A stretch of DNA of 64,000 nucleotides from Watersipora subatra (Eukaryota > Bryozoa > Gymnolaemata > Cheilostomatida > Watersiporidae), in contig NC_088711.1 in the NCBI RefSeq assembly GCF_963576615.1, positions 63,707,248-63,771,247 of the forward strand, in the 5' to 3' direction. Positions 1-64,000 of the stretch are shown here, one piece after another (the stretch's first letter is position 1; every line of letters starts with the position of its first letter). The notes beneath the pieces are model-generated. The model saw nothing but the letters and a program-made list of their open reading frames with translations. It was not told the DNA's origin and made no database searches. The translations under genes were made by a program, and so were the position numbers.

Positions 1-3000
1 TATTCTTTGATCAGGTTTACGGCCTCAGATTCGTTTCTGACACTGGCAAGGCCATCATCAACATAAAAGTTATGGTGTATAAAGTAGTGCGATTGTGTGT
101 TGTGGGGAAACGTGTTTCTGAAATTGTCAGCCAAAAATCGTAGCCCATAAGTGGCACATGCAGGAGAGGACCTGGCTCCAAATAAATGTACAGTCATTTT
201 GTATGACTGAAGCTGACCTTCTGTGTTGTACGAAATGAATTGTAAATAATCTTGGTGATTTTCCGATACTTTGAACTGGTGAAACATCCTCTTGATGTCT
301 CTCATGATTGCTATTGGTCTCAGTCTAAACCTTAACAGGATTCCTTGTAGATCGTTCATATGTTCTGGCCCTTGAAGAAGAAAGTCATTCAGGCTTACTC
401 CTCCCACCTTGGCAGCACAGTCAATTCGATCCGGTAATTCGATCAGTAATTCGATCCGGTTTTCTAGGGTGGTACACCCCAAAGTGTGGAATGTACCATG
501 AGTAGTCAGTAGTTTTTCTCAGTTGCAGGGATAGCTTCTCCCTTGTTTATTATATCTCTCATAAACTCATGGTACTGTTCTTTATAACGCGAGTCCTTCT
601 GGAATTTCTTTTCTAGCAGCCTAAACCTATGTATGGCAGCTGATTTTGTATTTAGTGCATATGGTTTTGATTTGAATGGCAAGGGCATGGTTACCCTATC
701 CTTTTTCAGAGTAGTTTGTGTTTTTAGTATGTGAAGAAATTGTTTATCATCTACAGAGAGGCTTGGTGTGTCTTCATGTGCACCATGAAATTCTTGGTTG
801 AATATATTTATAAGTTTGTGCAGTTCTTTGTTTGATTTGGTTGTGCACTGAAATGTCACAAATTCATGTTTGGCTAATTGGTCAACAATTGTTGCTAGTG
901 TGGTATGTGGAGCACTGTCACCCATAACATTCCAGCCTATGGCAGTTTTGATGGCAAATGGTTCATCATCATGATCAGTGTCGATAACTTGCTGAGGTTT
1001 GAAGGCTTTGGTAAAATTGTTGCCTATGAGTAGGCCGACAGGTACATCTTTGTGATTGTTAGGTAATTCATTAGCTACTTGTATGAGATGTGGCCAACGG
1101 CTCAGTACAGTTTTTGTAGGTATTTGTCGTCTGTCAATAGGTATTTTGTGATGTGAATAGCTAGGGGGTAATTCATAGCAAACTTTGTGATTGTAGGCTC
1201 TGACTGTCAAACCATACACTAGATGATTATGGACTTTCTTTTTGTCAGATGTCATTGTTGTAATATCTATTTCTGTGTGGGTATAGTCTGGTTGTATCTT
1301 GTGTATCGTATCTACAGTGATATAGGTTCTGTCGGACATTGAGTCAACAAGAGCATATACTAAAGCTTCCGTCAGAGGGTTTTTTTTTATTTGAGACCCA
1401 AACAGGTAGTATCCACGAAAGTGAGTTCAATTCCATGTTTAAACATATATTCAAACATGATTTTTCTGGTCATTGAGAATTGTCTTTTGTTTTTAAAGGT
1501 TCTGCAGCTTTTGGCTGCAAGGAGTTGTTGGCTATAGGCTTAGATTGCTCCAGATTCGAGCTATTGCCAAAACCAGATTTTACCTGTTGTTTGACGGATG
1601 AAGTTCGCATATTGTGTAAGGCTGTTGGATGTTTACCTTGACAGACTTTACATATAGATGGTACTTCACACTGTCTGTAGCTGTGGGCATCAGACAAGCA
1701 AGAGAAACATAGCTGTTGGTCCCTCATGAAGGTTTGTTGTTCGTTAAAGGAGAGTCGACCAAATTTCCCACACTCTGTGGTGGAGTGGTTTTTCATGTTG
1801 CAATAGACGCACTCCTTAGTACTGATTTCGCTTCTAATACCTTGAGTTGGCCCATTATGCTGAGTGGCATATGTTTTCTTCAGGTTTCTGCTTTGCTTGT
1901 TAGTATCGTTTGTGTAGGCCTTGCCTGCGTATATGTCAGCGTACATAGGATTACATGACATCTCAAGTTCTGTACTCAAAAACTTGCACAGTGCTTCAAA
2001 ACTTGGGCTTTGGTTGTATTTCTTTTGATATTTAGTAGCCTTTCGCACCCATTGCCGAGTTATGAATTCAGGCAGCTTAGCCAAGATTTGTTTATGAACC
2101 TCATAGTTGTCAAGAAATGAAAGCTTTTCTATACAGACTTTTGCAGTCTTGCACAACAGGAGGAAATCTATGAACTTCTGCAGTCCATCATGGTCTCTAG
2201 GTTTGATGGCAGACCACTGTTCAAGTTTGCTTCTAAAACCTTGAGCAATAGTAAATGGGTCACCAAATCTGGCGTCTAAGACTGCTCTGGCTTCAACATA
2301 GGCAGTCTCACCTTGTAGGAAAAAGTACCCGTTTACAGCTTCTAAAGCTTTTCCTCCAAGATATTTACTCATGTAGTCTAACTTTTCGGAGTCGGAAAGT
2401 GGTTTTTTGCCTATCAGGTTATCAAAGCTGAGCGCCCAACGAGGATAGTCTACTGGATTTCCATCAAACACCTTTGGCTCTGATAGTGGTAGTTGATATG
2501 TCATAACTACAGTCTTAACAGGTTCTGCTGAGATATGCTGCTCTGAGCTTGTATTTTGCTTTAAGGCAGTAGCTACCGGAGTTGTGTTCACCTTGCAATG
2601 CGAAGTTGTAGGAGGCCTAGTCGTCCGTTTTTGATTGAAGGTGTGTGCGCTGGGCATAATTGTTTCAGGTTCAAGATCATCATCCTCAGATTCAGAGTCT
2701 AATGTATGTGGGACCTGATTGGCAACATGATTTGTTGCTTTCTCTTTGCACGGCTTTGTAGTTGCAGGTGGCTTGCTGGGTGCAAAGGGAGACGCAAGGT
2801 TCAAAATATTTGGTGGTGCATCGAGTACTTGGTGGCCATTACCAGTTAGCATGAGACCAGATCCTTCGCATTCTTCTTCAGCTAATGCTTGACTGTATAT
2901 GACAGCTTTTCGTTTTTCAGCCTCAATTTGACTCTCGATTTCAATTGCCTTTTTGGCATTTTCTAATTTTGTCAGTTGTTCTTGAATTGCTTGTGTTTTG

Positions 3001-3731
3001 CTGTTAGCATGTAGCTGCATTTCTAATTCGACTAGTCTAGCATTTGCTTCAGCTTGTTTTTGTCTTAAGATTGATGAAGTTGTTGAACAAGAAGTGCTGC
3101 ATGAATACTGTGAGCCAATCGCTGAATTCCTTGATTTGTGTGATAATGCTCTTGAGGTTTTTGGCCTAACTACTTTGCTGCTTACTATCTGGCTTATTTG
3201 ATTACACAACTCGTCATTATCATGTGTTAGCTTGTCAACCTGTTGTGTGACAGCTTTGCATGGCTCGCCATTCAAAACTCTAAATTCGTTATAGAGCTTA
3301 TGCACATGTCTCTCACTGGCCTCAAGATCCTTTTTTATAGCCTCATACCTAGCAAAGGAGGTGTCTTCTTGGTCTATTTCATTGTGAAGTGTGGCATTTA
3401 TCTGAGCTTGCACTTTTATATCACTTAGCAGTTGTCGCTTTATTGTTTCACCTTTCACCCTAGCTGATCTTCTAGGTTGGTTTGAAAGTGACAAGGTGTC
3501 ATATTGGGTGCTAATTTTACGGGTGGGCTGGTTGTGAAGTGAAGGAGTTTTATGAATGGAAATTAGGTCGATACGCTCTGAATTTGCAAGGTGTGGATCG
3601 ATTGACTCAGGCACGAGATTGGAGTCGAGCGGCGTTACGTCAGGTATGATCTCATCGGCACCAGCAACTGCGACGGCTGCACGAGCAAGCAGCCCTTCAT
3701 GCGGCGAGGCAGAGCTAGTAGCCATATTCAT
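1..3731 (-). mobile_element. BEL/Pao LTR retrotransposon fossil, 5' half (gag and start of pol)
   Basis: The gag region (about 1470-3731) starts with an Ala/Ser-rich leader and a coiled-coil-like Gln/Lys/Glu segment. A DUF1759-type capsid region follows, then three C-terminal zinc knuckles of the CX2CX4HX4C type, the last a shorter variant ending in His. Pol begins at about 1339 with the DUF1758-type aspartic protease region and runs into reverse transcriptase toward base 1. This order is typical of BEL/Pao elements. The rest of pol and the 3' LTR would lie beyond the left edge. I could not delimit the 5' LTR above 3731. The copy looks broken, with roughly one or two interruptions in the visible part, and gag is still long and open, so it is probably fairly young. 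Family assignment is confident; age is inference. Confidence 0.85.
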
Positions 3732-5864
3732 TTTAATAGTTTGGCTTATTTATCCAAAGAGCAATTATCGCAGCTCCAATAGACCAGCAGCTAATTGTTA
3801 TACCCAAAATAGTGTAGTTAGCTACTCTACATTTATATATGACAGTCAATATTTGGCAAACATAAAACCTATGGTTGTGATTTCACCCGTGCCGAGATTA
3901 ACAATATACCGCTGACAAATAACAAAAAAAGAAACAAAAATATACAAGCTGTGTAACTAAATAATACAACGATGAAGGCTATGCTCATGGTTATGTAAAA
4001 TTAATTGCAGGCATTATACACCGACTTCTTGTAGACTTACTTCTCTTCAGCAGGTTGACTTGCCTGGTGGAGATATTACACAGCTGTTATTTCTTTCTTG
4101 CTGTTGATTTAGTGGTTGTGGCTCATCTGTGTATCAGTAGTAGTTCAGGCGTAATATCCACTCCATTCTATTCTTGTATTCTTAGGTGACAAGATTCACT
4201 GTATTGCACTTCCCAATAGATCTGAGATCCAACGGATTATCGGTTGTTAGTTGTATGTGAATAGTATGTTTATTTGATATATATGCATATACCGATATAT
4301 CGTGAATCTAAAATGAAATTAAATGAAGAGTAAATAATAATAAAAGAGGCGATAGCAAGTTTGATAGCAAGTGAAAGTAGCATAAAAGATGTATAAAAAC
4401 TCGCAATAATATGTAGCAGATAAAACATTGCTAACAAATTATGATTTGATATGAATGAGTATACAACATATATAAAGCAGAAATGCGCATATACTTGAAA
4501 AAGCAGCTGAAAACAAAGCATTAACTATATGAATAATAACAAATAAAAAAGGCACTCTGTATAATAATGATATTAAAGTAAAAAGGTATTACCTTGTTAC
4601 ATCCTCTCAGGAAATGCAATAAGAATTGTCCTGGTTGTGATATAACGTGATACGTATTCTTGATCGTGCTTTCTGATGACTTTAGTTTACTTTAGGAATA
4701 TTGACGAATATGATAAGTGTAAAACACAAGTTACCAGCTTGAGGTGCACAAGATAAATGCCTCAGGTGGTCCAAAAAATAGAAAAGTGTTGCTGCCAATT
4801 GCTAATGAATCATACTTCCGATTATAAACCAAATACACAAATGTTGAAATAGTATTGAAAAACACATAAAATGAGGACAAGGCTTGGTGAAATCACAACC
4901 CTGTGGTTAAAATTGACTTGTTTGCTGTCTCTTGAGGACAGCTGATAGACTAGGACAGTGAGTAAAGATGTACGCATTACTACGTGTATAGTAAATAAGT
5001 TGCTGAATCTAACATTTAGCTTACCCATAATCCTCTTAGATATATATTGTGTAAACTGTGTTGAACGCTTTTATCTCAAGATGCATCAAATACCCATCCT
5101 TTGTAATGTAATCATTTGATACAACACTTCCTCTGTGTGCTACAGGCTGTTTCCAATGAGCTCTATTGACTGATGCGTTCAGCTGTCATAGCAACTCTTA
5201 CCTTGGCCGCAATGAGACTATGGAACGAGCTGACTGAAGTAACTCCTGCATATCATATTTATTGTATTTGTAGGAAGTTGCTAATATCCTGGTTTCCTAA
5301 TATTGGATTGTCTTTTGCTTTGAAAGTACTGCTTGCCATCACCAGTTTTGTTATATTTTTAAAAACCAAATTTTTTGTCTCTGTGAAGTCAAGACAAAAA
5401 AGGATGGAGTCAGTTGAATTTTTTATACGAAGATATCTGCTGGATGAAATGCGATCTTTTATTTGTGTAACCCTCATAAGTAGCTTGGACCAATGGAAAT
5501 GCTTGTTCATTATGATTGGTTGAATCTACTTTCTCGTTTATGAACAATCTTTCAACTTCTATACATTCTCTCCTTTGATACGAAGCTCTCTCTCTGCTGA
5601 TCACATTCTGTTTGTAATGTTCTTCTCAATTTGAGTGAGATAAAAAAAGTTTTTCAGATAGTCTGCCACACAACATCACCTATAGCATCACATAACAGGA
5701 GAAATCTTCTAATTTTGATACAAATAAATTGAAATTGAAACAATAAAAATATTACTAAAACTAATGTCAATAAATAGCATATATCAAACGAAAATTAGAA
5801 AGGAAGAAATAAATAACATGCTAAATGACCAGAACTTGAGCGAAATAAAGGCTGTGAGCTTCAC
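3732..5864. other. Gene-free AT-rich stretch between the retrotransposon and the PCYT2 3' end
   Basis: The part next to 3731 is presumably the leader and 5' LTR of the BEL/Pao element, but no boundary is clear. A 15-18 bp inverted match (core GGTTGTGATTTCACC) occurs near 3870-3885 and 4886-4905 and might bound a small inserted element. Short open frames near 4270-5600 show no recognisable protein family. AATAAA on the minus strand near 5458-5463 is a possible but distant polyadenylation signal for PCYT2. Confidence 0.5.
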
Positions 5865-16182
<10,318 letters not shown>

Positions 16183-45072: not shown

Positions 45073-48000
45073 TCAAGAGTTGCTGAAGTTGACAGAGTAT
45101 CCTCCACTATCATTTTGTTGAAGTTTGAAGTTGTCCGTTGACAAGCCAAAGGGTCGCAGAACAAGGTTACCCAAGTCCTTCAGTTTGCCTGCGAGTATAG
45201 TTAGAGCAGTTACTGAATTGAGGGTAAGATAACTTCTCTTTTTACTAAAACTTCGTTCACTTCAAATATTGATTACTGAGGAAGAAACATGATTTCATGT
45301 GCTAGGTCATCACTATTACATGATACAAAGTGTACTCGATAAAGATAGAAAGATAGAGATACTAGGTAAGGTTATCTCATGAGTAAATGACCTTCCAATG
45401 TTTACTTATAAAATGCTTCAACTTGTATCTCAGACTAGACTTACCTGCGCAGAGGAATAGACCGTATAAATAAATAAGATATTCAGAACATATTCTGAAT
45501 TTCTGACAGAATATGCCGTCAATTAAACTCTGTCGAGTATGATTGCTGTGTAATCGATAGTTTGATCACCATGATAAGTATGTTGATAACAGCATACCCA
45601 TCCTGGTGTATTCATCCCAGTAGCAACTCGCATCTCAGACTAGACTTTGATTGGTAATGGGCATATAAAAAGTAAAACGGAAAACACTGACTTACCTAAC
45701 ATCTCTGATTTTAACTTTTCATTTCTCTCTTCAATCTGCTTGGGAAGTCTCTAAAACACCAATAACATTTCAGCTGCAAACACTTATTCACTTCTCACAT
45801 AAATTCATGCGTAAAGGTAATAACTGTGAATGGCATATACAGCACACCGAGCAATAGTATTAGAAGAAACAAGGTCAGAGGTGAGAAGGTCAACTGATGC
45901 CAAGCGCACTGATGGTGGAATAATAGACTATTTAGGCCAAACGTGAAGTGGTTAATAGACTATCTATCAAAAAGGTAACAAGGTCAAAGGTTATGAAGAA
46001 GAATACACAGATATCCTAATACATATCTGACAAGCAGGCAATATATGGCCAAACGATGACATCATAGACAGAGAGTGATACCTGACATGCTGAGAGTGAT
46101 ACCTGACATGCTGAGAGTGATACCTGACATGCTGAGAGTGATACCTGACATGCTGAGAGTGATACCTGACATGCTGAGAGTGATACCTGACATGCAGAGA
46201 GTGATACCTGACATACAGAGAGTGATACCTGACATGCAGAGAGTGATACCTGACATCCTGAGAGTGATACCTGACATGCTGAGAGTGATACCTGACATGC
46301 AGAGAGTGATACCTGACATGCTGAGAGTGATACCTGACACGCAGAGAGTGATACCTGACACGCAGAGAGTGATACCTGACACGCAGAGAGTGATACCTGA
46401 CACGCAGAGAGTGATACCTGACATGCAGAGAGTGATACCTGACATGCTGAGAGTGATACCTGACACCCAAAGAGTGATACCTGACATGCTGCGAGTAATA
46501 CCTGACATGCTGAGAGTGATACCTGACATGCAGAGAGTGATACCTGACATGCAGAGAGTGATACCTGACATGCTGAGTGTGATACCTGACATGCTGAGTG
46601 TGATACCTGACATGCTGAGAGTGATACCTAACATGCAGAGAGTGACACCTGACATGCTGAGAATGATACCTGACATGCAGAGAGTGATACCTGACATGCT
46701 GAGAATGATACCTGACATACTGAGAATGATACCTGACATGCAGAGAGTGATACCTGACATGCTGAGAATGACACCTGACATGCAGAGAGTGATACCTGAC
46801 ATGCTGAGAGTGATACCTGACACCCAAAGAGTGATACCTGACATGCAGAGAGTGATACCTGACATTCATAGAGTGATACCTAGCCTGTCTTGACAAACTG
46901 TAGTTTTTGCGGAGTTGTTCCCCCGTCGAGCGGGCGTGCAACACAACAGCTTGTCACAAGACGTGCTGCACCTGATGCATCAGCTGCACTTATAGGGAGT
47001 TGTTCTCTTCCGTCTTTGTGGCTTGGTTGCGATGTTAGGTCGGTTGCTCCATTGGTATTCATAACGAATTTCGCGCAAAAATTTAAGTAGAAAAAATAAG
47101 ATTACAACGTTTAACCAGCGACCAGTCTCTGCGGTAAACTTTAGTAGAACTTGAGAACTTAGGCAACAACAGTGACTAAACATGTCGTTATTTGTGCGCT
47201 CAGTCAGTTTTATTTCTTTTTTGTATCAGTCAGTTTTATTTGTTCTTATAGATTTTATTTTATTTTTAAATTCTACTAACGTTTACAACAGAGACCGGTC
47301 TTTGGTTAAACGTTGTAATCTTATTTTTTTCTACATAATTTTTTGCGTGAAATCCGTTATGATTACCAATGGAGCGACCGCCATAACATCGCAGCCAAGC
47401 CGCATAGACGGAAGAGAACAAATCCCTTTCAGTGCAGCTGATGCATCAGGTGCAGTACGTCTTGTGACAAGCTGTTGTGTTGCTCACCCGCTCGACGGGG
47501 GGACAACTCCGCAAAAACAACAGTTTGTCAAAACAGGCTAAGTGATACCTGACATGCAGAAAGTGATACCTGACATGCTGAGAGTGCTTCTAAAGATTTG
47601 CTGTCGAGTTCCAGTAGTGACTTATAGTCTACCAGCGCCTCATCAAGTTTCTCTGATTTCTCATAAGCCTGAGCTCTCCGCAACAGTGGCTTGGGATAAT
47701 GGGGGTGGAGCGCTAGAGAGTCTGTACAATCTTTAATCACGAGGTCGGTCTTTTCCTAGAAATTAATTATTAAAAAATGCAAATCTACTACGATTATATT
47801 AGGAATGTATTAGAAATATATTATATAAAGCATAATATATGTAGTATATTAATATATGCTATATTTTGACTAGTCAGCACTAGGCACAACTGACTATTCG
47901 TAATACCGTAAAACCTCTAAGTGAATGCCATGGTACTCTATTTTTCAACCCTTCCTCTTTAGTGGCAGTAAATTGGAAGTGGCGTTCAAATAGAGGCTGA

Positions 48001-51000
48001 AGTTGTATTTTTAAAACGGCTCGTCGGAATTTTGGGAACATAAACTTAGCCCATTCACGAGTGAAGCTAATGTGGCCTATATTTTGCCCTCTTTTGCCGG
48101 TGGACCGATATTAGACTTTTTAGAAGCAATAAATCTGCTAACTTACCTCTAACTTTTCAAAGATCTCTAAATAAAATATGCATTGGGAAGCTGAGAAATA
48201 TCTCTATCAGTTGTTATCTATTGCTTACAATTAAACTGCAATGATATTATAGCCTGTGGCCCTGTGCCTTGCTTTGCAATTTGTTAAAGCTTTCTATTTT
48301 TTCATTCTAAATTTGAAGGCATATTTTTATTTTATATCTATATATTTATGATGTTGTGGACACTTTTCTACTGCTCAATTGATATTATAGGTTCGTAAAG
48401 ATCAAAGAATGTTAAAGTGGTGGTGAAATGGAGGTGGCGTTCAATTAGAAAGTGGCGCTCTATCTTTCAACCGTTCTCTCAGGGTGGCGGTCGAAAAAAA
48501 GTGGCGTTCAAATAGAGGTGGCGTCCAATTAGAGGTTTTACGATATATAGTATTGCTAGTATCCCAACAAAGCATAACCCAAAAAATATATACAGCTTGG
48601 TCTAAAAAAGCATTGCATTTCTCACAAGTTATAATACAATATATTGCAATTTGTTGTGACTAATATATCATATTAATCACAAAGCAAGTAATATGCCAAA
48701 CTCAAATTTGAACAATAATACAACTACATGTATCAGACCACATGTATGCAGATTTATTAAAAAATTATTAATTATAACAAAGTTGTCTGTTTTGATGAAA
48801 TTTTTGCTAATGTGTAAATTTGAACACTGTCGGGCATTATTTCTTTCTATTATTAGCTATTAGAAAGGCGAAAAAATCCCAGCACAAATATTGACGACAA
48901 TGTAAGACTCATATACATATGAATAGACACACGTACCAGATACATATGAATAGACCCACATACCAAATACATATGAATAGACACACGTACCAAATACATA
49001 TGAATAGACACACATACCAAATACATATGAATAGACACACGTACCAAATACATATGAATAGACACACATACCAAATACATATGAATAGACACACGTACCA
49101 AATACATATGAATAGACACACGTACCAAATACATATGAATAGACACACATACCAAATACATATAAATAGATACACATACCAAATACATATGAATAGACAC
49201 ACGTACCAAATACATATGAATAGACACACATACCAAATACATATGAATCGACACATGTACTAAATATATATATGAATAGACACACGTACCAAATACATAT
49301 GAATAGACACACATACCAAATGCATATAAATAGACACACGTACCAAATACATATGAATAGACACACATACCAAATACATATGAATAGACACACGTACCAG
49401 ATGCATATGAGCAGCGGCTCGATTAGAATGCATGATGGCCCTGTCCTTAGCGAAGCACAAAGGGCATATGGAGAGGGCTTCTGTATAAGAGGACACAGCC
49501 TCAACATAGAGCTGCTGCCTGAACTGGTCATTACCGGCATCCTTCAGCACCTGAGCATTATTCCGCAACTCCTAAAAAACACAAAGAGCTTGCCAGTTTG
49601 CTCAAATGCACTAAAACCTTTTTTCTATCCGTCAATACCTTAAAGAGAATTCAGTCTTTTAGAAATGATGCATTCTCTCCAAATTATGATATACACACAG
49701 AACAAGTATAATTTGAATTAAACTTGGTACAGAGGGGGAGTCAAGTTCTGACATGATAACAACCGCTGGCCATTCATGCTGTCGATAAGCAAGATCACGA
49801 GAGTGCATCTGACAAGTTTCAATATGTTTATTGATATACATGTACCGCAGAGATGTTACTAACATTATAAGGTATAGCACAGAGAACAAACCATATTAAC
49901 TGCATAAATAGTGTTAATGTTTCTTGGACATTCTAGTTGCTGTGCGTGCGATTCTTTTATTGACCAACATAGTTTTTAACCCCCCTTAACAGCAAAAGCT
50001 GTAATTTATTGACAGAACACTCTCAGATGCACTGACTGCTTTTCAATAGACAAAGACCTGAATTTCTGACAGAATATGCCGTCAATTAAGCTCAGTGGAG
50101 TATGATTGCAATGTGTAACCAATAGTTTGATCACCATGATGGATATGTTGATACACATACAACTACAGATCTACCTTTACTTATGATCACTTTACCATGT
50201 GAGCTATACAACATACGATGTGAAATTCTAGCATATATTGGATTTTATACTGAAGCAATTTTCAATATACAACATCCAAAGTTTCTGGAAACATTATTGC
50301 TTCACTTTAAAAATGAAAGTGAAAATTAAGAGCAAAATGTAAAAGGTATGAAAATAAATAAACTAAGCTAGTTGACCTTGACCTTAAGATATGTAGCGTT
50401 ATCTCTATTACTAGCTCTACCTGAAAACCTATGCATCGTCAAGCCATCTTTTGATTTCCATGACACAGTATGATTTTATTGAAACTGATATTAATAACTT
50501 AGTTTTTTACACATAACATTGTTTTTTTACATTAGATTTGTTCACATAGTTATATAGACTGCATTCGCTTGAAGACTATGGTAATTACTTTTAATATTTA
50601 TGAAAGAGATACTGAAGTCTTTGGATTAAGGATCAAGTTAAATTTAACATACAAATAACACGAAAAGAATGGACATCAGTTTTACAAGTTTGATTGTGAT
50701 AGATTCAAGCAACAAGTTTTACTATCTAATACATTGTTAACTGCTGCGTGTATAACTACTAATACATTGTTAACTGCTGCATGTATAACAATAACATTGT
50801 TAACTGCTGCATGTATAACTACTAATACATTGTTAACTGCTGCATGTATAATTACTAATACATTGTTAACTGCTGCATGTATAACTACTAATACATTGTT
50901 AACTGCTGCATGTATAACAATTGTTAACTGCTGCATGTATAACAATAACATTGTTAACTGCTGCATGTATAACTACTAAACATCACTCTCTTCTACAGTC

Positions 51001-51552
51001 ACTCGAGGCGACTAAGACTGCCTATGGTTGTAGTTTACGTATGATAGCAGATCGGCAATCATTTTGATCGGAAGCAGTCATCTGCCATGAGTTTATACTG
51101 ATCTGCCTCAATTTTAAGCTACTAAATTCTATTGACTGCTAAGCATAGTTAGTATAAAAATTCACAGCCGGTAAATAATAATTAAAATAATACTTTTAAC
51201 GAAAACTTAAAGATACCATTTTCTCTTGGTCGGAAAGCTTGTCTTCTCGCTCAGCTCGCTCTTGCAGAAGCTGTGCTTCTATTTCATCTCCTGATGAGTT
51301 AGCATTTTCTTCTTCCGAGTTTTCGTCAGAACTAACATCTCCTTTTGCTGCACCAGCCTCCCCTTTAGGAACAGGGTCTGGAGTTGTCTGTTTAGATGCT
51401 GTTTCTTCATCCGAGTTGTTGTCAAAACTATCATCTCCTTTTGCTGCACCAGCCTCTTCTTTAGAATCAGGGTCTGGAGTCGTCTGTTCAGACACTGTTT
51501 TTTCTTCAGTGAGCGTTAGTTTACTAGTGTTACTAGCAAGATTGTCTTCCAT
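45073..51552 (-). CDS. TTC1: Tetratricopeptide repeat protein 1, complete, 5 exons
   Basis: TTC1 is a TPR adaptor/co-chaperone reported to bind Hsp70/Hsp90 and G-protein alpha subunits. Exons (minus): 51552-51217, 49571-49398, 47755-47570, 45750-45696, 45188-45073. Total 867 nt, 288 aa (human 292), phases consistent. Residues 1-100 are acidic and disordered-looking. Three TPRs follow, from [20 protein letters not shown] (exon 2) through NRAAAHMHL to [21 protein letters not shown] (exon 3). The C-terminus carries [14 protein letters not shown], then [20 protein letters not shown] and YSVNFSNS, strongly conserved with human. ATG at 51552 sits in a good context (ACTATGG). Residues 23-54 are repeated at 55-82 (QTTPDP…EAGAAKGD), a tandem coding duplication. 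The donors of exons 2 and 3 are each the first of a tandem array of near-identical donors. The chosen junctions give exactly the human spacing. Confidence 0.97.
45490..45596. repeat. Dispersed repeat copy 1 (~100 bp), TTC1 intron 4
   Basis: Shares CTGAATTTCTGACAGAATAT, GCCGTCAATTAA and AGTTTGATCACCATGAT with a second copy at about 50052-50155 in TTC1 intron 1, same orientation. Family unknown. Confidence 0.8.
46063..46880 (-). repeat. 21-bp minisatellite of the TTC1 exon 3 donor, about 39 units
   Basis: On the coding strand each unit is GTAT followed by CACTCTCAGCATGTCAG. The latter 17 nt are identical to the last 17 nt of exon 3 in the commonest unit. Two more units (47541-47570 region) lie between exon 3 and a MITE that split the array. 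Every unit carries a CAG-GTATCA donor. Variants (CAGCAT, CTGCAT, CTGCGT, CTTTGGGTGT) recur in blocks. Confidence 0.95.
46881..47540. mobile_element. Mutator-like foldback MITE, copy B, inside the TTC1 intron 3 array
   Basis: Uninterrupted 660-bp copy with terminal inverted repeats of about 285 bp (TAGCCTGTYTTGACAAACTG…). The 9-bp flank AGTGATACC is on both sides (46872-46880, 47541-47549), which is also the array motif. It is highly similar to copy A, so both insertions are fairly recent. It separates the first two donor units from the rest of the array. Confidence 0.9.
47906..48543. mobile_element. TA-flanked MITE (CCGTAAAACCTCTAA family), short copy, TTC1 intron 2
   Basis: CCGTAAAACCTCTAAGTGAA follows TA at 47904-47905; CCAATTAGAGGTTTTACGA precedes TA at 48544-48545. 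It is 638 bp and shares terminal and interior blocks with 23655-24738 and 17866-18270. Confidence 0.85.
48905..49405 (-). repeat. 27-bp minisatellite of the TTC1 exon 2 donor, about 18 units
   Basis: On the coding strand each unit is CATATGTATTTG (like the exon 2 end CATATGCATCTG) followed by GTACGTGTGTCTATT or GTATGTGTGTCTATT, the intron start. The array begins exactly at the junction. One unit near 49240-49275 has lengthened AT-rich sequence with an in-frame stop; the others keep the 27-bp step. Confidence 0.96.
50052..50155. repeat. Dispersed repeat copy 2 (~100 bp), TTC1 intron 1
   Basis: Second copy of the repeat at 45490-45596 (about 85-90% identical by eye), in the same orientation. 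Confidence 0.8.
50733..50980. repeat. Minisatellite, 24-33 bp units, about 8 copies (TTC1 intron 1)
   Basis: Core ACATTGTTAACTGCTGCATG then TATAAC with a variable spacer. GTTAAC is palindromic. It is not at an exon junction. Confidence 0.9.

Positions 51553-55739: not shown

Positions 55740-64000
<8,261 letters not shown>

Follow-up and report, generated by a model that had tools for sequence, protein, structure and literature searches.

Tandem arrays repeating the 5' splice site at exon ends of TTC1 and other genes of the bryozoan Watersipora subatra

The exon 2 minisatellite of human IFI6 (6-16, G1P3) is the closest system known to us. It was reportedly described by Turri, Cuin and Porter in 1995 as carrying multiple splice donors, and its 12-bp unit is present in about 26 copies, which begin close to where exon 2 ends. 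A related case is that of tandem alternative donors, for example GTNNGT, in which closely spaced 5' splice sites are able to shift the exon end. Engineered minigenes are the usual means of studying how the spliceosome chooses among near-identical donors separated by a few tens of bases. Two downstream repeat units of human IFI6 act as donors and give three mRNAs, as stated in an excerpt of PMC4526556. The open-access literature that we searched does not describe junction minisatellites for bryozoans, nor as a class occurring genome-wide, and the excerpt of a report on minisatellites in earthworm metallothionein introns (PMC12783039) does not describe donor-bearing units.

We analyzed a 64-kb stretch (the window) of chromosome 4 (OY755161.1) of Watersipora subatra, whose genome spans 783.7 Mb (excerpt of PMC12902671). 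Coordinates are window positions, and adding 63,707,247 gives the genome position. The introns of this genome are rich in minisatellites, some of which include the donor. Genome-wide, tandem triplets of AGGTRAGT are about ten times as frequent as those of its reversed motif, and single copies of the two are equally frequent in a sample. The window also contains an array of 31-bp repeats (57453–59436) in which higher-order periods of 93, 155 and 248 bp are seen, and two long minus-strand open frames (506–3749) that resemble a retroelement polyprotein by eye, with zinc-knuckle-like CxxC motifs. An array at the end of TTC1 exon 2 has the sequence features of the IFI6 type: it begins before the exon end, repeating the exon–intron junction, and its units are donor-like.

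Donor arrays at two TTC1 junctions

Scripted splicing of five exons gave a TTC1 product of 288 residues with a Pfam TPR_1 match (4.7e-14), and its best PDB relatives by phmmer are SPAG1 (1.7e-35) and RPAP3 (7e-25). The gene is presumably TTC1, rather than one for another TPR protein, as judged from the human protein and its C-terminus. Exon 2 (49398–49571, minus strand; 174 nt, ending in phase 0) was placed using the sequence, the Pfam TPR match and PDB chains, and exon 3 (47570–47755, minus strand; 186 nt) ends in SLEALSACQ. Coding exon 1 contains a 96-bp tandem duplication (2.1 copies, 51306–51504).

The array at the exon 2/intron 2 junction, referred to as array A, is a 27-bp minisatellite on the minus strand. 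TRF placed it at 48913–49410 with 18.4 copies and a 91% match. The unit listing resolved 18 units from 49409 down to 48922, 17 of them 27 bp long and one, unit 6, of 29 bp. The sequence-only reading had described an array of about 18 copies of 27 bp starting at the junction, and both analyses bear this out. Each unit consists of the 12 terminal nt of exon 2 and the 15 initial nt of intron 2; unit 1 reads CATATGCATCTG (exonic, encoding HMHL) and then GTACGTGTGTCTATT (intronic). Exact pattern searches of the whole 784-Mb genome found the 27-bp unit only in array A.

Five donors in line begin at 49397, 49370, 49343, 49316 and 49289 on the minus strand. Donor 1 is CTG|GTACGT, with its GT at 49396–49397, and donors 2–5 (49288–49370) read TTG|GTAYGT. 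The GT is intact in all 17 of the 27-bp units, and GTAYGT is found everywhere except in unit 6 (TTTA|GTACAT). The earlier description of the repeated donor as carrying TTG holds for most intronic copies and fails for the exonic copy, where CTG precedes the GT. We scored the donors with an approximate weight matrix: donor 1 reaches 4.2 bits, most other unit donors (TTG) reach 1.8–2.0 bits, the last full unit, which has CTG again, reaches 4.2 bits, and unit 6 does not score above zero. Donor 1 is stronger by this measure than every other array A donor but the last. Donors 2–5 are in frame and free of stops, and their use would add 9, 18, 27 or 36 residues, the first block being VRVSIHMYL. The first in-frame stop past exon 2 is a TAG (49260–49262, minus strand) inside unit 6, whose 2-bp insertion puts the later units in another frame. 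These additions, and a stop near 49260, agree with what had been read from the sequence beforehand.

Exon 3 ends in a sister array, array B, whose 21-bp unit combines the terminal 15 nt of the exon, CTCTCAGCATGTCAG, with GTATCA of intron 3. It comprises 40 whole units on the minus strand, two at the junction (47543–47584) and 38 (46069–46881; 38.7 copies by TRF) past a 660-bp foldback element. This element (46881–47540, minus strand), a candidate Tc1/mariner-like MITE whose ends are inverted and which is edged by TA on either side, lies inside the array two units after the exon 3 donor. The genome pattern search found the exact 21-mer at the TTC1 locus only. GT is intact in 40 out of 40 whole units, and the columns TGTCAG|GTATCA are near-invariant, with 4 changes in 480 cells compared with 43 in 360 for the other nine columns (46076–47584), although these counts are not independent because the units share descent. 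The 38 units past the foldback element lie beyond an in-frame stop, and their intact donors therefore cannot reflect coding use. Given the shared descent and the position of most units beyond the stop, we leave the conservation of the donor columns without interpretation.

Spliced with donor 1, the TTC1 product aligns without gaps to the TPR domains of SPAG1 and RPAP3 over both HMHL|EKTD and SACQ|RLPK (phmmer). In the predicted protein, use of donor 1 thus yields conserved spacing of the TPRs at each of the two junctions with arrays (exon 2/3 and exon 3/4), as had been expected of the first donor, and it is probably the donor that is mostly used. A different reading is that array A works as a ladder of isoforms, in which donors 2–5 are appreciably used, and TTC1 gains 9, 18, 27 or 36 residues between the two helices of its second TPR, over a range determined by the copy number. 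We consider this unlikely. The open frame of donors 2–5, the triplet periods of both TTC1 arrays (27 and 21), the intact GTs and quiet donor columns, and the use of downstream repeat donors by human IFI6 (excerpt of PMC4526556) are all in its favor, but donors 2–5 score below donor 1, and the GT and column counts of array B come largely from the distal units that lie past the stop and share descent. Arrays in other genes bear further on this reading.

Junction arrays in other genes

Two of the four junction-spanning arrays of the window lie in TTC1, and the other two lie in a minus-strand gene with a Pfam CTP_transf_like match, presumably PCYT2. One of these (12929–13480, by TRF) consists of diverged 16-bp units starting at 13480 with the exon end CAGCTG|GTATGT. 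Its donor 1, at 13474, joins DTYQL to VKDAGRY of the next exon, which is the spacing of human PCYT2. The other (8864–9005) has a 43-bp unit in 3.3 copies that spans GTGAATAGATACAAAG/GTAAGATAA. Its donor at 8970 reads ACAAAG|GTAAGA and scores 6.6 bits (AAG|GTAAGA, approximate matrix), and if a later donor were used an in-frame TAG would be read within the first added unit.

Elsewhere in the genome, an exon with a DNMT1 match (L042, on C1 near 1,460,540; 38 of 38 residues aligned, phmmer E 3.6e-15) ends in six identical AAG|GTGAGT donors spaced 25 bp apart. The first added unit would read GTG AGT TGT TAT TGA, which is a stop, so a later donor in DNMT1 would truncate the protein. As the donors are identical, position rather than strength likely decides which donor is chosen there. 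At a further locus (L043), an open frame without a Pfam or PDB match lies at the start of an array with a 34-bp period.

We surveyed the ends of conserved exons using 149 sampled ends, drawn from 80 of 142 Pkinase matches and 69 of 75 Myosin_head matches. Some of these ends are not true donors, and the resulting rate is approximate: by reading, the junction was spanned, with at least 6 exonic nt included, in 6 of the 149 (95% CI 1.5–8.6%). The six arrays have periods of 111 bp (L089), 32 or 33 bp (L098), 32 bp (L099) and 46 bp (L127) in kinases and of 43 bp (L128) and 31 bp (L133) in myosins. Two more loci (L053 and L152) carry arrays that start at intron base 1, with periods of 45 and 18 bp. 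A stricter, automated donor caller placed 56 donors among the 80 kinase ends and reported a single case, L127, in which 20 nt of the junction are copied at 80%; TRF and inspection by eye turned up the cases beyond L127. In the window genes, 4 of the roughly 11 donors that could be placed by reading are spanned, well above the 4% of the sample. The L099 array has 17.9 copies that are 99% alike, and its first donor reads CAG|GT where the copies read CAG|AT.

The periods of the 12 spanning arrays are 27, 21, 16, 43, 25, 34, 111, 32, 32, 46, 43 and 31 bp, and three of them (27, 21 and 111) are divisible by three. Adding the arrays that start at intron base 1 gives 5 of 14; our triplet test was run on 4 of 13, with L053 counted and L152 left out. 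There is no triplet bias in these sets. A rule that junction arrays have a triplet period and an open frame, which both TTC1 arrays fit, was rejected on these counts. The lack of triplet bias outside TTC1 and the truncation predicted for DNMT1 both weigh against an isoform ladder at array A. The non-triplet periods and the stops in DNMT1 and in the 43-bp PCYT2 array imply that, in W. subatra, a ladder of donors need not amount to a ladder of isoforms, and routine isoform production, judged from these predicted frames, is not the general rule. The sequence-only reading had offered array A as either a source of isoforms or a neutral array; the same periods and stops favor the neutral alternative, and isoforms as a rule are not upheld.

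The arrays might instead have been selected for redundancy, with copies of a weak donor raising total U1 occupancy and securing exon recognition. Several of the spanned donors are indeed weak, including CAG|GTATCA (0.5 bits, approximate matrix), AAG|GTACTT (L098) and AAG|GTACAT (L089). However, strong donors are spanned too (AAG|GTGAGT in DNMT1, the 6.6-bit PCYT2 donor, and L127 at 6.8 bits), weak donors also occur among unspanned kinase ends, and the L099 array repeats without its donor. We regard selection for redundancy as very improbable.

The units are unrelated between arrays, each being a copy of the exon end at which it lies (TTC1 twice, PCYT2 twice, DNMT1, L089, L098, L099, L127, L128 and L133). 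Together with the restriction of the TTC1 units, by exact pattern, to their own locus, this makes a mobile donor cassette unnecessary, and that candidate was rejected. For the same reasons, the idea that array A is an inserted mobile repeat bearing donors, or an artefact of assembly, can be almost wholly discounted: apart from the general difficulty of repeats nothing speaks for it, whereas the units vary and the assembly was made from HiFi reads (excerpt of PMC12902671).

We think it quite probable that array A is a locally born minisatellite and a coding-silent by-product of duplication, with the exon-proximal donor sufficing for splicing. The founder unit would have lain across the donor of TTC1 intron 2. 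Where a tandem duplication begins within an exon and ends within the following intron, the upstream exon and its donor would remain whole, and the extra copies would become the start of the intron, silent provided that splicing uses the exon-proximal donor. Unequal exchange or slippage could then enlarge the array. We infer this route from the structure of the arrays. It would need no selection, and it predicts gene-specific units, no triplet bias, and non-triplet arrays in essential genes.

Arrays in relation to splice sites

Of the 149 sampled exon ends, 7 have a TRF array lying over the end of the match; in Markov-resampled sequence the average over ten rounds was 0.1. At positions 140–440 nt past the exon ends, 18–20 of the 149 are array-covered, and by this comparison junctions are entered at about one third of the intron level. 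Acceptors are spanned in 1 of 90 cases (L200), and the difference from the 7 of 149 covered donor ends is not significant (Fisher P 0.26). This sole case is the start of a kinase exon, where a 58-bp array (3.2 copies) reaches across the acceptor and takes in 30 exonic nt. In the window, a 40-bp array (13.9 copies, 61060–61619) abuts the acceptor of a plus-strand SEPSECS exon (Pfam SepSecS) that is not clearly included in the array.

The donor motif may itself attract tandem duplication, which would make splice donors more frequent birthplaces of arrays than other sites. The evidence here conflicts. Triplets of AGGTRAGT number 5923 sites genome-wide against 585, 756, 687, 3751 and 1255 for five control motifs, and among the matches listed the motif has 9 distinct loci in the first 3.5 Mb of C1 against 9 in 60.7 Mb, 9 in 38.7 Mb and 2 in 10.4 Mb for controls. 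This excess does not follow single-motif counts, which do not favor AGGTRAGT (23 against 8–26 in 429,456 strand-bases). On the other hand, CAGGTAAGT triplets number just 450 (75 for the reversed control), with one array making up most of the matches listed, and array coverage is lower at junctions than within introns. The nine AGGTRAGT loci that we fetched, all from the start of C1, had an exon at the array start in two cases (L042 and L043) and none in five, and in the other two the start lay inside the array. Among 63 arrays sampled in or near genes, units scoring at least 4 bits were found 2 times in sense, 6 times in antisense, once for the reversed and never for the complemented sequence, with no enrichment of sense donors. 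Seeding by the donor motif is, on this mixed record, doubtful as an account of the junction arrays.

Comparison with known donor arrays

Coding-silent duplication would give minisatellites a simple route by which to acquire splice donors without harm to the protein. Natural genes of W. subatra offer 3 to about 40 donor copies in line, some with a spacing that destroys the frame, and the choice among such copies is therefore directly measurable in existing RNA-seq of this species (BioProject PRJEB62167, specimen tzWatSuba4; PMC12902671). We also put forward, tentatively and as somewhat less probable than not in our estimation, a wider conjecture. Ladders of a gene's own splice donor may be a standing class of intron start in W. 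subatra (at roughly 4% of the conserved exon ends in our sample), read by an exon-proximal rule even where the copies are identical and strong, as with the six DNMT1 donors; some triplet ladders, such as that of TTC1, may leakily yield proteins of variable length, not the same in every individual.

Like ordinary intronic minisatellites, the junction arrays consist of head-to-tail tandem units for which variable copy number is expected, but they differ in that the founder unit takes in coding sequence and the 5' splice site. They are also unlike GTNNGT donors, as the W. subatra donors would arise by unit duplication and lie 16–111 bp apart in many copies. The nearest likeness is to IFI6: the units of array A carry splice donors at an exon end, several in line, and by the make-up of its units the TTC1 array is a further case of the IFI6-type splice-donor minisatellite. 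It differs from IFI6 in gene, phylum and unit, which are unrelated, and in unit length (27 instead of 12 bp). In W. subatra, several genes of one genome show donor arrays, non-triplet units included. What is new is the presence of several members of this type in one window and at a few percent of the sampled exon ends of one genome.
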